Source: Xanthobacteraceae bacterium (lineage in GTDB: Bacteria > Pseudomonadota > Alphaproteobacteria > Rhizobiales > Xanthobacteraceae). From it: a stretch of DNA of 64,000 bases. Positions within the stretch are counted from its first letter, which is position 1. Each line of letters opens with the position of its first letter. The DNA lies in NCBI GenBank assembly GCA_030041005.1, contig JASHOR010000032.1, forward strand, positions 41,326 to 105,325. Direction: 5' to 3'. A program made the position numbers and the translations under genes. This document shows positions 34,105 to 48,537 of the stretch, piece after piece. Under the pieces are notes generated by a model. That model had not been told where the DNA came from. It searched no databases and saw only the letters and a program-made list of their open reading frames with translations.

Positions 34105-36897
34105 TTATTCCGCCGCGATCCGCGTCGCCGGATCGACCGCCTCGACGCGCGCGGCGCAAAACTTGAATTCGGGGATTTTGCCGAACGGATCGAGCTTTGG
34201 ATTGGTGAGCAGGTTCGCCGCCGCTTCGACATAGGCGAACGGGATGAACACCACCCCGTCGGGGATGGCGTCGTCTTGGCGCGCGGCGAGTTCGACGGCG
34301 CCCCGACGCGTCGTGACGCGGATCAGGTCCCCCGGACTTATGCCGAGCTTGGCGATGGTGCCGCGCGATACCGACGCCACGGCGCTGGGTTCGAGCGCGT
34401 CGAGCGTCGTGGCGCGGCGCGTCATCGCGCCGGTGTGCCAGTGCTCGAGCTGCCGGCCGGTGGTGAGGATGAACGGATAGTCCTCGTTCGGCGTCTCGGC
34501 GGGCGGCTGCAGCTTGGCGGCAACCAGCTTGCCGAAGCCGCCTGGGCGCGGAAAGCCCTTGTCGAAGACGACGTCTTTGCCAGGCCGGTCCGGCGCTTCG
34601 GCGGGATAGGTCACCGAGCTTTCGCGCTCGACACGGTCCCATGAAATATTGTCGAGCGAAGGCATCAGTGACGCCATCTCGGTGAAAATATCGCTCGGGT
34701 GCTGATAGTTCCAGTTGAGCCCCATGCGGCGCCCGATTTCCTGGATCAGCGACCAATCCTGCCGCGCGTCGCCCGGCGTCGGCAGCGCCTTGCGGCCCAT
34801 CTGCACCTGCCGATTGGTGTTGGTGACGGTGCCGTCCTTTTCCGGCCACGCCGAGGCCGGCAGCACCACGTCGGCGTACATCGCCGTCTCGGTGAGGAAC
34901 AGGTCCTGCACCACGAGATGTTCGAGGTGCGCCAGCGCCTCGCGCGCATGGTTGAGGTCGGGGTCCGACATCGCGGGGTTCTCCCCCATGATGTACATTC
35001 CTTTGATCACCCCGGCGTGGATCGCATCCATGATCTCGACGACGGTCAGGCCGGTTTTTGGATCGAGTTTGGTGCCCCAGGCATCCTCGTAGCGGGCGCG
35101 GATCTGCGGGTCGGTGACCGACTTGTAGTCGGGGAAGAACATCGGGACGAGCCCGACATCGGAAGCGCCCTGCACGTTGTTCTGGCCGCGCAGCGGATGC
35201 AGCCCGGTGCCGGGCCGGCCAATCTGGCCAGTGATCAGCGACAGCGCGATCAGACAGCGGGCATTATCGGTGCCGTGGGTGTGCTGGGAAACGCCCATGC
35301 CCCAGAAGATGATCGCCGATTTGGCGCGCGCGAACTTGCGCGCGACGGTGCGCAGCACGTCGGCTTCGATGCCGCAGATCGGCGCCATCTCCTCTGGCGT
35401 GAATTCCTTGACGCTTTCGGCGAACGCCTTGAAGCCTTCGACGTAGGTCTGAATATACTGTTCGTCGTAGAGCTTTTCAGTGACGATGGTGTTGAGCATG
35501 CCGTTGAGCATCGCCACATCGGTGCCGTTCTTGAACTGCAGCATGTGGGTGGCATGGCGCTTGAGCGCCTGGCCGCGCGGATCGGCGACGATCAGCGTGG
35601 CGCCGCGCTTTTTCGCCTGCTTGAAGAACGTTGCCGCAACCGGATGATTTTCGGTCGGATTGGCGCCGATGACGAAGATCACCTCGGCATTCTTGCACTC
35701 GTTGAATGAGGCCGACACCGCGCCCGAGCCGATGCCCTCCATCAGCGCCGCCACCGAGGAGGCGTGGCAAAGCCGCGTGCAATGATCGACGTTGTTGGTG
35801 CCGAAGCCGGTGCGCACGAGTTTCTGAAAGAGATAGGCCTCTTCATTGGAGCCCTTGGCCGAGCCGAAACCGGCGAGCGCCTTCGATCCATCGCGGTCGC
35901 GGATCTCCTTCAGGCCCGCGGCGGCGCGGTCGAGCGCCTCTTCCCAGGTCGCTTCGCGGAAATGCGTCCAGGGATTCGACGGATCGATGGACTCGTGCGG
36001 CACCTTCGGCGCGCCATCCTTGCGGATCATCGGCTTTTTGAGCCGCTGCGGGTTGTGAACATAGTCGAAGCCGAAGCGGCCCTTTACGCACAGCCGATTT
36101 TCGTTCGAGGGGCCGTTGCGACCGCTGACATAGAGCAGCTTGTCGTCCTTGATGTGATAGGTGAGCTGACAGCCGACGCCGCAATACGGGCACACGCTGT
36201 CGACCGTGCGGTCGGCCTTGCCCTTGAAGATGTTCTTGGCGTCGACAAGCGTCGCCGGCATCAGCGCTCCGGTCGGGCAGGCTTGCACGCATTCGCCGCA
36301 GGCTACGCAGGTCGAAGCTCCCATCGGGTCGTCGAAGTCGAACACGATCTTTTCGCCGTGACCGCGTCCGGCCATGCCGATCACGTCGTTGACCTGCACT
36401 TCGCGGCAGGCGCGGACGCACAGATTGCAATGAATACAGGCATCGAGATTGACCGCCATCGCCGGATGGCTACGGTCAGGCGCGGGCGAATGGCGGCGCG
36501 GGAAGCGGCCCTGTTTGAGCTGCATGTCGGTCACGATCTTCCAGAGCTGGGAAGCGGGATCGTGAGCGTGCGCCTGATCGGGCTGATCGGTGAGCAGAAG
36601 CTCGGCCACCATGCGGCGCGCGGTCTCGGCACGCTCGGTCCCGGTCCTGACCTTCATGCCCGGTGCAGGGTTGCGGATACAGCTTGCCGCCAGCACCCGC
36701 TCGCCCTCGATCTCGACCATGCAGACGCGGCAATTGCCATCCGGCCGATAGCCGGGCGCCGGCGAATAGCACAGATGCGGGATGTCAATGCCGAGCCGGG
36801 CCGCAGCGCGGAAAATTGTTTCACCCGGCCTGATATCGATTTCGCGATCGTCGATGGTAAAGGTGTTGGGATTTTGTGCGTTGGCATCACTCATCAA
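34105..36897 (-). CDS. fdhA: NAD-dependent formate dehydrogenase alpha subunit (Mo/W-bisPGD enzyme)
   Basis: N-terminal 2Fe-2S and 4Fe-4S domains (CVACGECVQACPTGAL), SVCPYCGVGCQLTYH, DHCTRLCHASSVAALMEGIGSGAVSASF with Cys at the metal-ligand position; pairs with a NuoEF-like subunit. Confidence 0.92.
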   Translation of the reverse strand: MMSDANAQNPNTFTIDDREIDIRPGETIFRAAARLGIDIPHLCYSPAPGYRPDGNCRVCMVEIEGERVLAASCIRNPAPGMKVRTGTERAETARRMVAELLLTDQPDQAHAHDPASQLWKIVTDMQLKQGRFPRRHSPAPDRSHPAMAVNLDACIHCNLCVRACREVQVNDVIGMAGRGHGEKIVFDFDDPMGASTCVACGECVQACPTGALMPATLVDAKNIFKGKADRTVDSVCPYCGVGCQLTYHIKDDKLLYVSGRNGPSNENRLCVKGRFGFDYVHNPQRLKKPMIRKDGAPKVPHESIDPSNPWTHFREATWEEALDRAAAGLKEIRDRDGSKALAGFGSAKGSNEEAYLFQKLVRTGFGTNNVDHCTRLCHASSVAALMEGIGSGAVSASFNECKNAEVIFVIGANPTENHPVAATFFKQAKKRGATLIVADPRGQALKRHATHMLQFKNGTDVAMLNGMLNTIVTEKLYDEQYIQTYVEGFKAFAESVKEFTPEEMAPICGIEADVLRTVARKFARAKSAIIFWGMGVSQHTHGTDNARCLIALSLITGQIGRPGTGLHPLRGQNNVQGASDVGLVPMFFPDYKSVTDPQIRARYEDAWGTKLDPKTGLTVVEIMDAIHAGVIKGMYIMGENPAMSDPDLNHAREALAHLEHLVVQDLFLTETAMYADVVLPASAWPEKDGTVTNTNRQVQMGRKALPTPGDARQDWSLIQEIGRRMGLNWNYQHPSDIFTEMASLMPSLDNISWDRVERESSVTYPAEAPDRPGKDVVFDKGFPRPGGFGKLVAAKLQPPAETPNEDYPFILTTGRQLEHWHTGAMTRRATTLDALEPSAVASVSRGTIAKLGISPGDLIRVTTRRGAVELAARQDDAIPDGVVFIPFAYVEAAANLLTNPKLDPFGKIPEFKFCAARVEAVDPATRIAAE

Positions 36898-36910: not shown

Positions 36911-38644
36911 TCACCAGCGTCCTAGCGGCTTCGTTAAATCGTCCGGAAAGTATTTCAGCACACACAGCAACGGATTTGGCGCCGCCTGGCCAAGACCGCA
37001 GATCGATGCATCGCGCATCAGCGCGGAGAGCTCCACGAGTAGCGCGGCGTCCCACGGTCCATTGGCCATCAACTGCGCGGCCTTCTCCGTGCCGACGCGG
37101 CACGGTGTACACTGGCCGCAGCTCTCATCCTCGAAGAACCTGAGGAGGTTGAGCGCCACGGCTTTCATGTCGTCCTTGTCTGACAGGATCACAACGGCGT
37201 GCGACCCGACGAAGCAGCCGTATTTTTCCAAGGTTCCGAAGTCCAGCGGGATGTCGGCCATCGACGCCGGCAAAATGCCGCCTGAAGCGCCGCCCGGCAG
37301 ATAGGCCTTGAACGTGTGGCCGTCAGCCATGCCGCCGCAGAACTCGGCAATAAGTTCGCGCGCGGTGACGCCGGCCGGTGCGAGCTTGACGCCCGGGTTC
37401 TTGACCCGGCCTGAGACTGAGAAGCTGCGAAACCCCTTGCGCTCGTGGCGGCCTTGCGAGGTGAACCAGTCCACGCCCTTCTCGACGATGTCGCGAACCC
37501 AGAACAAGGTCTCGACGTTCTGCTCCAGCGTCGGCCGGCCGAACAGGCCGACCTGCGCCACATAAGGCGGCCGATGGCGCGGCAGGCCGCGCTTGCCTTC
37601 GATCGACTCGATCATCGCCGACTCTTCGCCGCAGATATAGGCGCCGGCGCCACGCCGGAGATGGAGACGACTGTGCTTGGCGAGCCCGGCCTCCTCCACC
37701 TTGGCAAACTCCTCGGCGAGCAGAAGACGCACCTCAGGATATTCATCGCGGATGTAAATGTACGTGTCGGGCGCTTCGACAACCCAGGCCGCGATCAGCA
37801 TCCCCTCGATGAACCGGTGCGGATCGCGTTCGAGATAATGACGATCCTTGAAGGTTCCCGGTTCTCCTTCGTCGGCATTGACCGCGAACAGCCGCGGCGC
37901 CCGCTCGGCGCGCACCAGCGACCATTTGCGCCCGGTCGGAAAGCCGGCGCCGCCGAGGCCGCGCAAGCCGGAATCGCTCACGAGCTTGATGATGTCGTCG
38001 CGCGTGCGCTTGCCGGCAACGCAAGCCTTGAGAAGCTCATAGCCTCCATCGCGGACATAAGCGTCGAACGTCGCCGGCGTCGGATAGACGTGCGGATGCG
38101 CCGGCTTGGCAGCCGCGGCGACGACGCCGGCCGCCTTTGCCTGAAAGATTTGCGTGTGGCCGACGGCACAGACCGGAGCCTGGTCGCAGGCGCCCATGCA
38201 CGGCGCCCGCACCACGCGCACGCCGCCGCCAAGTTTCGTCGGCAATTGTTCAAACAACCGCTCGGCACCAGCCAGCGCACAGGACAGCGAATCGCAGACA
38301 CGCACTGTCACGGGTGGTGGCGGCGTCTCGCCTTCCTTCACCACATCGAAGTGGGCGTAGAAGGTTGCCACTTCGTAGACCTCGGTCAGCGCAAGCCGCA
38401 TCTCCTGCGCCAACGCCGCCAAATGTCCGGCGGAAAGATAACCGTAACGATCCTGGATGAGGTGCAAATGTTCGATGAGCAGATCGCGCCGCCGCTCCCG
38501 CTCGCCAAGTAGGGCACCCACCTCGGCGAGCGCGGTCGGGTCAACTTGTCTGCCCTTGGGGGTGCGCGGCGGCCGGCGGCGGCCACTTCGGCCGCCATCT
38601 TGGCGATGCAAGTTTGCAGCCGGATGTGGTTCGGTCAGATTCAT
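36911..38644 (-). CDS. fdhB: Formate dehydrogenase beta subunit (fused NuoE/NuoF-like)
   Basis: N-terminal NuoE-like CDSLSCALAGAERLFEQ...RAPCMGACDQAPVCAVG; NuoF-like GLRGLGGAGFPTGRKWSLVRAERAPRLFAVNADEGEPGTFKDRHYLERDPHRFIEG, ESCGQCTPCRVGTEK; start at 38644 or 38665. Confidence 0.9.
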   Translation of the reverse strand: MNLTEPHPAANLHRQDGGRSGRRRPPRTPKGRQVDPTALAEVGALLGERERRRDLLIEHLHLIQDRYGYLSAGHLAALAQEMRLALTEVYEVATFYAHFDVVKEGETPPPPVTVRVCDSLSCALAGAERLFEQLPTKLGGGVRVVRAPCMGACDQAPVCAVGHTQIFQAKAAGVVAAAAKPAHPHVYPTPATFDAYVRDGGYELLKACVAGKRTRDDIIKLVSDSGLRGLGGAGFPTGRKWSLVRAERAPRLFAVNADEGEPGTFKDRHYLERDPHRFIEGMLIAAWVVEAPDTYIYIRDEYPEVRLLLAEEFAKVEEAGLAKHSRLHLRRGAGAYICGEESAMIESIEGKRGLPRHRPPYVAQVGLFGRPTLEQNVETLFWVRDIVEKGVDWFTSQGRHERKGFRSFSVSGRVKNPGVKLAPAGVTARELIAEFCGGMADGHTFKAYLPGGASGGILPASMADIPLDFGTLEKYGCFVGSHAVVILSDKDDMKAVALNLLRFFEDESCGQCTPCRVGTEKAAQLMANGPWDAALLVELSALMRDASICGLGQAAPNPLLCVLKYFPDDLTKPLGRW

Positions 38645-38702
38645 TTTTTTCCAAGTTTCTCCCAAGGTGAAACGATCGGCGTCATAGCCGTTTGTCGGCG
38701 AG

Positions 38703-38825: not shown

Positions 38826-39719
38826 GTGATCGATAAGCTCGAATTTCTGTTAGCATTGGCACAGGAGCAGCATTTCGGCCGCGCAGCCGAAGCCTGCGGC
38901 GTCACCCAGCCGACGCTGTCGGCGGGCATCAAGCAACTCGAGCATGGCTTTGGCATTCCGCTGGTCAATCGCGGATCCCGCTTCCAGGACTTCACGCCCG
39001 AAGGCAAAAGGGTACTTGACTGGGCCCGCCGCATCGTCAGCGATACCCGTGCCATGCGAGAAGAGGTGCACGCGCTCAAGAACGGCCTCTCGGGCCGCTT
39101 GCGCATTGCCGCGATACCGGCGGCGCTCGTCATGATCGAGACTCTGACGACCCAATATCGCAAGCGGCACCCCGACGTGCAATTCACTGTTCTTTCCCGC
39201 AACGACGAACAGATTCTCGACCTTTTGGAAAATCTCGAAATCGAGGCCGGAGTAACTTACATCGATGACGAGCCGACCGGCCGGGTTGCCGCCACGCCGC
39301 TCTATCGCGAGCGTTATTGCCTGTTGACCGCCGTCGACGCGCCGTTCGGCGACCGAACCCAGGTGAGGTGGGCGGAAGTGGCGCAACTGCCGTTGTGCCT
39401 GCTGACCCCGGATACCCGGTCGCGGCGCCTTATCGAAGACCTGTTGCGCGCCGCCGGCGGCATCTCGCGTCCGAGCCTGGAATCGGATTCGATGATGGTG
39501 CTGTACGCGCACGTGCGCACGGGCCGCTGGGCGACCGTCATGCCCTCGCGGATAGCTGCGACACTCGGTCTCACCGATGTCCTGCGCGCCATCCCAATCG
39601 TGGAACCTGAGGCGAGCCACACGATCGGCCTGGTCGTCCCGGCCCGCCAGCCGATGAAACCGTTGACGGCGGCGCTGGTCGCCGAGGCCAGGCGAACCGC
39701 CCGGCGTTTAGTCGACTGA
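38826..39719 (+). CDS. LysR-family transcriptional regulator
   Basis: IDKLEFLLALAQEQHFGRAAEACGVTQPTLSAGIKQLEHGFGIPLVNRGSRF winged HTH; GTG start; divergent from the formate dehydrogenase genes. Confidence 0.92.
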   Translation: MIDKLEFLLALAQEQHFGRAAEACGVTQPTLSAGIKQLEHGFGIPLVNRGSRFQDFTPEGKRVLDWARRIVSDTRAMREEVHALKNGLSGRLRIAAIPAALVMIETLTTQYRKRHPDVQFTVLSRNDEQILDLLENLEIEAGVTYIDDEPTGRVAATPLYRERYCLLTAVDAPFGDRTQVRWAEVAQLPLCLLTPDTRSRRLIEDLLRAAGGISRPSLESDSMMVLYAHVRTGRWATVMPSRIAATLGLTDVLRAIPIVEPEASHTIGLVVPARQPMKPLTAALVAEARRTARRLVD

Positions 39720-39960: not shown

Positions 39961-41361
39961 ATGAGTTTCTTCGATAAGAGCAACACGATTGCCGGACCCG
40001 GCTTTAACCGGTGGATGGTGCCGCCGGCGGCACTGTGCGTGCATCTGTGCATCGGCCAAGCCTACGCGTTCAGCGTGTTCAACCTGCCGATGACCAAACT
40101 GATCGGCATATCGCACTCGACGCCCAATGACTGGAAGCTTACTCAATTGGGCTGGATTTTTTCGCTCGGCATCTTTTTCCTCGGCGTGTCGTCGGCCGTG
40201 TTCGGCCGATGGGTCGAGGAAGGCGGTCCACGCCGGGCCATGTTCACGGCAGCGTGTTGCTGGGCCGGCGGTTTCTTCATCTCAGCGTTTGGCGTCTATA
40301 TTCACAATTTGTGGATCATCTATATCGGTTATGGCGTGATCGGCGGCTGCGGCCTCGGCATCGGCTACATTTCGCCAGTCTCGACATTGATCAAGTGGTT
40401 CCCTGACCGGCCCGGCATGGCGACCGGCATGGCCATCATGGGCTTTGGCGGTGGCGCCTTCATCGCCGCGCCGCTCTCGGTGTGGCTGATGAGCAGGTTC
40501 AACACCGCGACGCATGTCGGCGTCGCCGAAACGTTCATCGTCATGGGCGCGATCTACTTCGTCTTCATGATGGTCGGTGCGATCATCGTAAGGGTGCCGG
40601 CCCCGGGCTGGAAACCGGCCGGCTACACGCCGCCGGTGCAGGCAACAAAGCTGATCACGACCAAAGATGTGTTCGTCTACGATGCGTTGAAGACGCCGCA
40701 GTTCTGGCTGATCTGGTGGGTGCTCTGCCTCAACGTCACCGCCGGCATCGGCGTGCTCGGACAGGCTTCCGCCATGAGCCAGGAAATGTTCCCCGGCAAG
40801 GTCACCGTGGTGGCTGCGGCCGGATTTGTCGGCTTGATGAGCCTGTTCAACATGGGCGGCCGGTTCTGCTGGGCGACCGTCTCAGATTATATCGGTCGCA
40901 AGAACACCTACTTCGTGTTCATGGTGCTCGGCTTCATCTTGTACTGCACCGTGCCCACGATGGGAGCAATCGGCAGTGTCACTGGCTTTGTCCTGTGCTT
41001 CCTGGTCATCATCAGCATGTATGGCGGCGGCTTCTCCACCGTGCCGGCATACCTGAAAGACATGTTCGGCACGCGTTACGTCGGCGCCATTCACGGCTTG
41101 TTGCTGACGGCCTGGTCGATGGCCGGCATCTTCGGGCCGGTCCTGGTGAACTACATCCGAGCCTATAACGTTGCTCACGGCGTGCCCAAAGCCGACGCCT
41201 ATAATGTCACCATGTACATCATGGCCGGACTCCTGGTGATCGGCTTCATCTGCAATCTGCTGGTCAAGGCGGTTCACCATCGCTTCCATATGAGTCCGGA
41301 CCACGAGGCGGAAATGGCGCAGATCGAAGTCGGAGCAGCCGGCGAACCGGCCGGCGCGTAA
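39961..41361 (+). CDS. OFA-family MFS transporter, probable oxalate/formate antiporter
   Basis: GFNRWMVPPAALCVHLCIGQAYAFSVFNLPMTKLIG, LGIGYISPVSTLIKWFPDRPGMATGMAIMGFGGGAFI; adjacent oxalate genes; AAAGGGAGAG upstream of ATG. Confidence 0.88.
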   Translation: MSFFDKSNTIAGPGFNRWMVPPAALCVHLCIGQAYAFSVFNLPMTKLIGISHSTPNDWKLTQLGWIFSLGIFFLGVSSAVFGRWVEEGGPRRAMFTAACCWAGGFFISAFGVYIHNLWIIYIGYGVIGGCGLGIGYISPVSTLIKWFPDRPGMATGMAIMGFGGGAFIAAPLSVWLMSRFNTATHVGVAETFIVMGAIYFVFMMVGAIIVRVPAPGWKPAGYTPPVQATKLITTKDVFVYDALKTPQFWLIWWVLCLNVTAGIGVLGQASAMSQEMFPGKVTVVAAAGFVGLMSLFNMGGRFCWATVSDYIGRKNTYFVFMVLGFILYCTVPTMGAIGSVTGFVLCFLVIISMYGGGFSTVPAYLKDMFGTRYVGAIHGLLLTAWSMAGIFGPVLVNYIRAYNVAHGVPKADAYNVTMYIMAGLLVIGFICNLLVKAVHHRFHMSPDHEAEMAQIEVGAAGEPAGA

Positions 41362-41373
41362 GGGAGGAGAGCC

Positions 41374-41499
41374 ATGGCAAACGAGACCCAAAAGGGCACC
41401 ACGACACTGCATCTTGTATTGGCGTGGGCCTTTGTCGGAATTCCGCTCACCCTGGGCGTCATTCAGACACTCATCAACTCGATGAAGCTGTTCCAGTAG
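41374..41499 (+). CDS. 41-aa single-TM protein, putative small partner of the OFA/MFS transporter
   Basis: Absent from the supplied ORF track; read manually: MANETQKGTTTLHLVLAWAFVGIPLTLGVIQTLINSMKLFQ*; AGGGAGGAG SD-like sequence at 41361-41369; 12 bp after the transporter stop. Confidence 0.75.
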   Translation: MANETQKGTTTLHLVLAWAFVGIPLTLGVIQTLINSMKLFQ

Positions 41500-41519
41500 C
41501 CGCTTCATCGCCACAATAG

Positions 41520-41550
41520 AACGGCGCGGCCGTAAAGCCGCGCCGTTTCA
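41520..41550 (+). terminator. Rho-independent terminator-like hairpin
   Basis: AACGGCGCGGC (41520-41530) pairs perfectly with GCCGCGCCGTT (41537-41547), loop CGTAAA, followed by TCATTTTG. Confidence 0.7.
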
Positions 41551-41647
41551 TTTTGTCAAAATTCGGCGCACGCGCTGCTTGCCCACATGACGCGGCTCGG
41601 CAAAGCCGCGCCGCCTGTCGCGTTTTTGGCCTCGGCGCGAAGCGCTG

Positions 41648-45278: not shown

Positions 45279-46730
45279 TTACGCTGCCGCGGCCTTCGCC
45301 GGCTTCTCGGGGGCGGCAATTGCGCCGGAGACCTTGATCTCCGCGATTTCCTTCTCCGAATAGCCTAGCACCTTGCGCAACACCTCATCGGTGTGCTCGC
45401 CGAGCAGCGGCGAACGCCGCACGTCAGGAACGGTATCCGACAGCTTCACCGGGCTGCCGACGGTCAAATACCTGCCGCGCGTTGGATGATCGAGCTCAAC
45501 CACCGTGCCGTTCAGACGCAATGACGGCTCCTCTGCAATCTCCTTCATCGACAGGATCGGACCGGCCGGCACGTCGACCTTGTTGCAGATTTCCATGACT
45601 TCGAATTTGGTCTTGGTCATGGTCCATTGTTCGATGGTGTCGAAGATTTGCCGCAGCCGCGGCAGGCGTGCCGGCGGCGTGGCGTAATCCGGATCGGTCT
45701 TCCATTCCGGCTTGCCGATCAGATCGCAGATCGCGCCCCACACCGGCGCCTGAGTGATAAAGTAGACGTAGGAATTCGGGTCGTTCTCCCAACCCTTGCA
45801 TTTGAGGATCCAACCCGGCTGGCCGCCGCCGGAATCATTGCCGGCGCGCGGGGTCGCATCCCCGAATGGGACATTCTCGCCATACTGGCTGTATTCGGTG
45901 AGCGGGCCGTGCTTGAGCCGCTGCTGATCGCGCAACTTGACGCGCGCGAGATTGAGAACCCCATCCTGCATGGCCGCAAGGACCTTCTGGCCGCGGCCGG
46001 TCCGATGACGCTGCAAGAGAGCACAGGCAATGCCGAAGGCGAGATGCAGGCCGGTTCCGGAGTCGCCAATCTGAGCGCCGGTGACGAGCGGCGGGCCTTC
46101 GCGAAAGCCGGTGGTCGAGGCCGACCCGCCAGCACATTGCGCGATGTTCTCGTACACCTTGCAATCCTCGTAGGGGCCGGGACCGAAGCCCTTCACCGAC
46201 GCGACCACCATGCGCGGATTGAGCTTGTTGATGTGCTCGAAAGTGAGCCCCATGCGATCGAGCGCGCCTGGCGCGAAGTTCTCGACCAGGACGTCGCATT
46301 GCTTGATCAGGCGGTCGAGGATTTCCTTGCCCTTGGGATGCTTGGAATCGATCGTGATCGAGCGCTTGGAGCCGTTGAGCATGGTGAAATAGAGGCTGTC
46401 GGCGCCCTTGACATCGCGCAATTGGCCGCGCGTGACGTCGCCCACGCCGGGTCGTTCGACCTTGATCACGTCGGCACCCAAATAGGCGAGAAGCTGCGTA
46501 CAGGTCGGGCCGGACTGCACGTGGGTGAAGTCGAGGACGCGTATGCCTTCAAGCGCCCTGCCCGCCTGCCCCCATGGCTTCGTGCTTGGCCGCGGCAGAG
46601 CATTGCCGTTCGCCGGCTTGGCCGCCGGCTTGCGGGCCTTCAACTTCACGACCTTCTTCGCCGTCGCCTTGGACTTAACCTTGAATTTCGCCTTGGATTT
46701 TGCCGTTCGCGCATTCTTCTTCGCTGCCAT
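45279..46730 (-). CDS. frc: Formyl-CoA:oxalate CoA-transferase with Lys-rich N-terminal extension
   Basis: [98 protein letters not shown]; start at 46730 with GAGGGG SD-like sequence. Confidence 0.93.
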
Positions 46731-46791
46731 GATTTCCCCTCTTGGCCGGTCGGGAGCAGGCCGCGCGAGGCGGCCGGGAATGGTCGACTGC

Positions 46792-48537
46792 CTATTTCCT
46801 GGCAAGTTTACTTTGCGGGTTGAGGTTGCCGATGCGGCCGCTCTCGCTGCCGGCCGCAGGATCGATCACCGCGTTGATCAGCGTCGGCTTGCCGGTATCC
46901 ATCGCCACGTTCACGGCGCGCTTGAGTTCGTCGGGGCTTGTGGCATTGACGCCGACGCCGCCGAACGCCTCGATCATCTTGTCGTAGCGCGATCCCTTGA
47001 CGAAAACGGTCGTCGCCGGGTCCGAACCAGCCTTGTTGACGTCGGTGCCGCGATAGATACCGTCGTTGTTGAAGACGACGACGCAGACCGGCAGCTTGTA
47101 CCGGCAGATCGTCTCGATCTCCATGCCGGAGAAACCGAAGGCGGAATCGCCTTCGATCGCCAGAACGGGCTTGCCGGTTTCGACAGCGGCGCCGATGGCG
47201 TAACCCATGCCGATGCCCATGGCCCCCCAGGTGCCGACGTCGATGCGCTTACGCGGCCGATACACGTCGATGATGCCACGGGCGAGATCGAGCGTGTTGG
47301 CGCCTTCGTTGACAAGTACGGCATCCGGTCGCTCTTTGACGATGGTGCGCAGCACGCCGAGCGCGCCATGGTAGTCCATCGGCGAATTGTTGTTCATCAG
47401 CCGCGGCGCCATTTTGGCGACGTTCTCTTCGCGTTTCGATGTGACGGTCTTGATCCAGTCCGCGGGCGGCGTCGGCCAGCTACCGCCCATGGCGCCGAGG
47501 AGCGCGGAAACGCAAGAGCCGATGTCGCCAACGAGCGGAGCGGCGATCTCGACGTTCGAATCCATCTCCCTGGGTTCGATGTCGACCTGGATGAATTTCC
47601 TCGGCGCCTCGCCCCAAACCTTGCCTTTGCCGTGCGACAGCAGCCAATTGAGACGAGCGCCGATCAGCATGACGGCGTCGGAGTCCCGCAGCACGGTCGA
47701 GCGCGCGGCTCCCGCGCATTGCGGATGGGTGTCGGGCAGAAGACCCTTGGCCATGCTCATCGGCAGAAACGGAATGCCGCTTTTCTCGACGAAACTCTTG
47801 ATGACGTCATCGGCCTGAGCGTAGGCCGCGCCCTTGCCCAGGATAATCAATGGACGCTTGGCGCTTCTGAGCGCATCGAGCGCGCGCTTCACTGCATCCG
47901 GAGCCGGAATCTGGGCCGGCGCCGGGTCGATCACCTTGACGAGAGACTTGTGTCCGGCCTCGGCATCCATCACCTGGCTGAACAGCCTGGCCGGCAGATC
48001 GAGATAAACGCCGCCCGGACGTCCCGAAACGGCAGCGCGGATCGCGCGCGCGAACCCGATGCCGATATCCTGCGCATGCAGCACGCGGAATGCCGCCTTG
48101 CATAGCGGCTTGGCGATGGCGAGTTGGTCCATCTCCTCGTAGTCGCCCTGCTGCAAGTCGACGATTTCGCGCTCGGATGAGCCCGAAATCAGGATCATCG
48201 GGAAGCAGTTCGTGGTCGCGTGTGCGAGCGCGGTGAGGCCGTTGAGGAAGCCCGGGGCCGATACGGTGAGGCACACGCCCGGCTTCTTGGTCAAGAAGCC
48301 GGCAATCGCGGCGGCATATCCGGCATTCTGTTCGTGCCGAAACGACAGCACGCGAATGCCCGAAGCCTGCGCCATGCGGCCGAAATCGGTAATCGGAATC
48401 CCCGGCACGCCGTAGATGGTATCCAGGCCGTTCAGTTTGAGCGCATCGATGACGAGATGAAAGCCGTCCGTCAGCTCCCGCTCGGCGGCGACTGCGCCTG
48501 CATCCGCACTTGTCTTCTTAAATGCCGCTTCAGCCAT
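46792..48537 (-). CDS. oxc: Oxalyl-CoA decarboxylase
   Basis: TPP-enzyme fold; [116 protein letters not shown]. Confidence 0.95.

Follow-up and report, generated by a model that had tools for sequence, protein, structure and literature searches.

Human MCT1 depends for both its delivery and its activity on basigin or embigin, partners that each contribute one helix (PMC11176948, PMC2409183). Basigin also carries Ig domains on the extracellular side, and its helix contributes a glutamate that pairs with TM6 of MCT1 (PMC11176948, PMC2409183). Among the bacterial relatives of these carriers, OxlT of Oxalobacter formigenes (8HPJ, 8HPK) was solved as a chain without a helix 13 and holds oxalate through Arg272 and Lys355, the latter engaging the second carboxylate (PMC10070484). 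On the side of small proteins, NCBIfam includes a family, NF047966 (MFS_OXA_tail_dom), named “MFS transporter small subunit”; the name comes from annotation, and a search of the open literature returned no paper on the family's function. A literature search for OFA carriers with small proteins was likewise without result. As a lead only, a Ribo-seq paper on Sinorhizobium reports 1 novel small open reading frame (ORF) in an MFS operon, and its main text mentions neither formate nor oxalate. MFS carriers are, to our knowledge, usually thought to work alone.

The stretch of DNA analyzed here (“the window”; 64,000 nucleotides from a Xanthobacteraceae bacterium) encodes a 466-aa MFS transporter of the OFA/MCT type with 12 transmembrane helices (39961 to 41361, + strand), assigned from NF049980 and from Foldseek. 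The ATG of a small ORF (41374 to 41499, + strand) lies 12 nt past the stop codon of the transporter gene (TAA, 41359 to 41361), in frame with that gene and separated from it by this single TAA. The ORF had been overlooked by the ORF track and was picked out in the original prediction, whose sequence and coordinates proved exact: its 41 codons translate to MANETQKGTTTLHLVLAWAFVGIPLTLGVIQTLINSMKLFQ. The proposed translation and termination signals were recovered as well, namely, the Shine-Dalgarno-like site AGGGAGGAG (41361 to 41369, + strand), the first A of which is the last base of the transporter stop, and, downstream, an intrinsic-terminator-like hairpin of 12 pairs, 9 of them GC, with a T-rich flank (41519 to 41548, + strand). 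The RNA from 41500 to 41570 folds with −29.6 kcal/mol (z = −3.7), and none of 200 shuffles was equally stable. The two genes would thus form one transcription unit ended by the hairpin, such that the partner would be made together with the transporter. A LysR-type regulator encoded upstream of the transporter gene (38826 to 39719, + strand; NCBIfam LysR-family matches) is a candidate regulator of the unit.

By score and position, the small ORF is a member of a family named earlier by NCBI rather than of an undescribed one. It scores 45.1 bits against NF047966 (cut-off, 24), with the match covering profile positions 3 to 31 of 31, and it sits right after an OFA-type MFS gene. A Pfam search with the small protein gave no match. 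Nor did a profile search of PDB chains (best E = 0.15, unrelated), among which neither the SfMCT chain nor basigin or embigin was matched, so that the likeness to the human partners is one of role only: in both cases, one helix would serve an MFS monocarboxylate carrier. Across 16 diverse sequences of the small protein, W18, P24, G28, and F40 are invariant; there is no conserved charge, unlike in basigin with its helix glutamate. The window genome has five profile matches to OFA/MCT carriers but a single copy of the NF047966 domain. The small gene of Inquilinus limosus (L160, 8368 to 8473) encodes only ∼30 residues, MRVLVYWLVVGIPLAYGVTMTLNNAAKLFH, near the minimal form of the family. Annotation of these genes is uneven: in Deinococcus deserti, the small gene (L111, 3483 to 3620) is labeled “hypothetical protein,” and in Palleronia (L114, 3471 to 3602), it is absent from the PLSDB table.

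The pattern of substitution indicates that the small ORF is under purifying selection in its own frame only and is clearly coding. Among 15 copies from the window's own genus, gathered by protein profile, which biases the estimate somewhat toward low pN, the pooled pN/pS is 0.28, and 61% of the differences fall at third codon positions. The corresponding values are 1.5 and 1.7 for the two remaining sense frames and 1.2 for the antisense, and column shuffles give 0.92 ± 0.23 (mean and standard deviation), with none of 300 as low as the observed value. The prediction of a genuine gene, and of synonymous and nonsynonymous patterns that fit coding, was thus borne out, with the NF047966 match and recurrence in seven phyla pointing the same way.

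A stop codon that is the only barrier between two frames, together with the fusion of the two proteins in other bacteria, raises the question of whether the small ORF is instead a C-terminal part of the transporter that is reached by read-through and not a separate protein. We consider this highly improbable. Among 78 distinct free copies, only 31 share the frame of the transporter, near one third; the intervening stop varies (TAA, TAG, or TGA); start codons lie a median of 13 nt past the stop, and ATG is used in 76. An SD-like core precedes 65 of the 78, compared with 3.5% of background positions, although this count is somewhat inflated given that starts were picked with a preference for such sites. 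Frame sharing and the separate SD and ATG starts rule out read-through as a conserved mode.

The domain is widespread, being found in 122 of 250 genomes of the window's family and in 53 of 399 genomes of a phylum sample. Within the window's family, it takes two forms, short frames of mostly 40 to 130 codons (stop to stop) and the ends of frames of ∼530 to 730 codons. At the loci read in detail, the free copies lie behind an MFS gene, except that one (L046) is too near a contig end to judge adjacency, and the long frames are MFS transporters with the domain at the C terminus. For an estimate unbiased toward the small domain, the query used on named genomes was an alignment of seven transporter sequences lacking the helix. 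Of 80 loci recovered, two were cut by contig ends, and of the remaining 78, 76 have the helix, 60 as a free small gene and 16 fused to the transporter C terminus. The other two, L164 and L185, belong to the transporter clade and have neither a free nor a fused helix; thus, the helix is not strictly required. Conversely, among other OFA carriers of the window's own family, none of 40 loci has the helix; this control set is interrelated and drawn entirely from one bacterial family. The expected conservation downstream of OFA homologs therefore holds for the branch of this transporter but does not extend to the helix-less paralogs. The named-genome loci come from Pseudomonadota, Planctomycetota, Acidobacteriota, Gemmatimonadota, and Bacteroidota, and plasmid records add Deinococcota and Actinomycetota, bringing to seven the phyla in which the small protein follows the transporter. 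At four loci, L116 (6949 to 10459), L118 (3606 to 7271), L033, and L040 (window's genus), a second OFA carrier, to which the helix is fused, comes directly after the transporter and free small gene. At another, L056, the transporter is split into two overlapping frames, probably through an assembly frameshift or gene decay, and the downstream small gene is intact.

When a small protein becomes fused more than once to the same partner, this is a classic sequence sign of joint function. On a quick tree of 150 carriers, the distribution of the domain takes three changes in all, most simply read as a single gain with two losses. Two separate changes are needed for the fused form, both forced by well-supported branches. 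One fusion is found in Planctomycetes (492 aa, with a short linker) and the other in a Bradyrhizobium/betaproteobacterial group. The tree needs a single origin of the helix and no fewer than two separate events of fusion or splitting, and these are the best evidence that helix and transporter work as one unit. Together with conservation and adjacency, they support the proposal that the small protein is a cotranscribed subunit of the MFS transporter.

The same evidence bears on two other roles that the helix might have. It could be a conditional regulator that inhibits or retunes the transporter instead of a standing structural subunit: most copies are separate genes, the expression of which could differ from that of the transporter, and several small membrane proteins known from bacteria act as regulators. 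However, the small gene lies within the unit of the transporter at a short distance, and the at least two independent fusions fix the helix permanently at 1:1, so that such a role seems decidedly unlikely. Alternatively, the helix could be a chaperone of biogenesis or membrane insertion that assists folding of the transporter and stays outside the working complex, much as human MCTs need the single-helix basigin to reach the plasma membrane (PMC11176948, PMC7996999). This too is unlikely, if somewhat less so, given that the fusions retain the helix on the mature protein. The small protein looks instead like a standing 13th-helix subunit, with a role comparable, by analogy, to that of basigin on human MCTs.

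Structural models are consistent with such a subunit. Two proteins were modeled, a natural Bradyrhizobium fusion and the window pair joined by read-through, the TAA being taken as Gln for modeling only. Each was predicted as 12 MFS helices followed by one further helix of high confidence (pLDDT, about 90; pTM, 0.84). The linker before the last helix has low confidence in both models. In the small protein, the modeled helix spans residues 11 to 40 (pLDDT, about 82 to 90). The C terminus of MFS proteins is cytoplasmic, and because the fused helix follows this terminus, the small protein would have its N terminus inside and its C terminus outside. It would insert beside the transporter, probably in this orientation, and presumably bind it, and there the helix may stabilize or gate the carrier. 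As to the site of contact, the mutual information computed from 104 helix-transporter pairs (effective number, 55) was scattered over all helices with no localized contact, and the branch-specific conserved positions, mapped on the transmembrane helices, singled out no one face.

The original prediction took the upstream gene for an oxalate/formate antiporter, a label that is probably wrong for this transporter. Its score against the OxlT model TIGR04259 is 122.1 bits, far under the cut-off of 335, and TIGR00890 is also below its cut-off. By both sequence and fold, the best solved homolog is the L-lactate transporter SfMCT (6G9X). The score against the corresponding model, NF049980 (SfMCT/L-lactate MFS transporter), is 333.5 bits (cut-off, 320), a marginal pass with a model that does not separate the branches, given that helix-less paralogs score equally high. 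In Foldseek searches, the nearest solved folds are SfMCT and OxlT, followed by human MCT1/basigin and then by MCT8 and MCT2/embigin. With OxlT, the transporter shares the MFS fold and the TM8 arginine, Arg272 being R301 here; Lys355, however, is replaced by W385, such that only one of the two oxalate-holding residues is kept. The arginine is retained in all aligned rows. The lysine position is Trp in all 105 helix-bearing rows, whereas in helix-less rows it is Lys in 47 of 54, Gln in 6, and Trp in 1; L164 and L185, the clade members without the helix, also have Trp.

The neighborhood of the pair points to formate and oxalate. Upstream, on the − strand, are the genes for a formate dehydrogenase (FDH) alpha subunit (34105 to 36897; TIGR01591, 758 bits; cut-off, 666) and for a fused NuoE/NuoF-like gamma/beta subunit (36911 to 38665; NuoF and NuoE matches below cut-offs); the gamma (NuoE-like) and beta (NuoF-like) parts, in one 584-aa frame here, are separate genes in Palleronia (L114). 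Downstream are formate-THF ligase, formyl-CoA transferase, and oxalyl-CoA decarboxylase. The frame of the formyl-CoA transferase (45279 to 46805, − strand) begins ∼80 residues ahead of the family match, with a Lys/Ala-rich stretch; the start was likely called too far upstream, or the protein has an unusual basic leader.

These neighbors suggest a link with formate/oxalate metabolism rather than with L-lactate. The formyl-CoA transferase and oxalyl-CoA decarboxylase, ∼4 to 7 kb from the transporter, could indicate that the carrier transports oxalate or exchanges it for formate and that the small protein is a subunit of this oxalate carrier. We find this doubtful, considering the uniform Trp at the Lys355 position of helix-bearing carriers, the low OxlT score, and the fact that the OFA branch linked to formyl-CoA transferase is the helix-less, mostly Lys-bearing one. 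In the window's family, FDH genes lie within 6 kb of 9 of 16 helix-bearing versus 0 of 29 helix-less loci, and formyl-CoA transferase lies within 6 kb of 2 of 16 versus 17 of 29; the P values (10⁻⁵ for FDH and 0.004 for formyl-CoA transferase; Fisher test) are a guide only and overstate independence, the rows being related. Of the loci in named genomes that have full flanks, only 19 of 53 have FDH nearby; the pair adjoins FDH genes in Deinococcus deserti and on Palleronia and Neorhizobium plasmids. Because of the exchange of Trp for Lys and the FDH neighbors of helix-bearing carriers, the likelier substrate is a monocarboxylate, with formate as the best candidate, and by moving it the transporter would supply or relieve the nearby FDH and oxalate pathway.

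Overall, we think it quite probable that the small protein is a single-helix subunit, made together with the upstream MFS carrier as its 13th transmembrane helix, in what is likely formate or monocarboxylate transport. A broader reading, possible but tentative, is that a helix gained once, and swappable between free and fused forms, marks a bacterial branch of formate carriers within OFA/MCT, arose along with loss of the oxalate-binding lysine, and plays a basigin-like role. What the analysis adds is the picture at the level of the branch: one origin, repeated fusion, Lys-to-Trp exchange at the substrate site, and FDH neighbors. A protein of 30 to 45 residues, often unannotated, follows one MFS branch across seven phyla. 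For the annotation of OFA proteins, the Trp/Lys split offers a cheap and testable rule by which likely formate carriers can be told apart from likely oxalate carriers. Should these carriers require the small protein, attempts to express them heterologously or to engineer them for formate-based biotechnology could fail when it is missing, and the bacterial pair would then offer a simple system in which to study why human MCTs need a one-helix partner.
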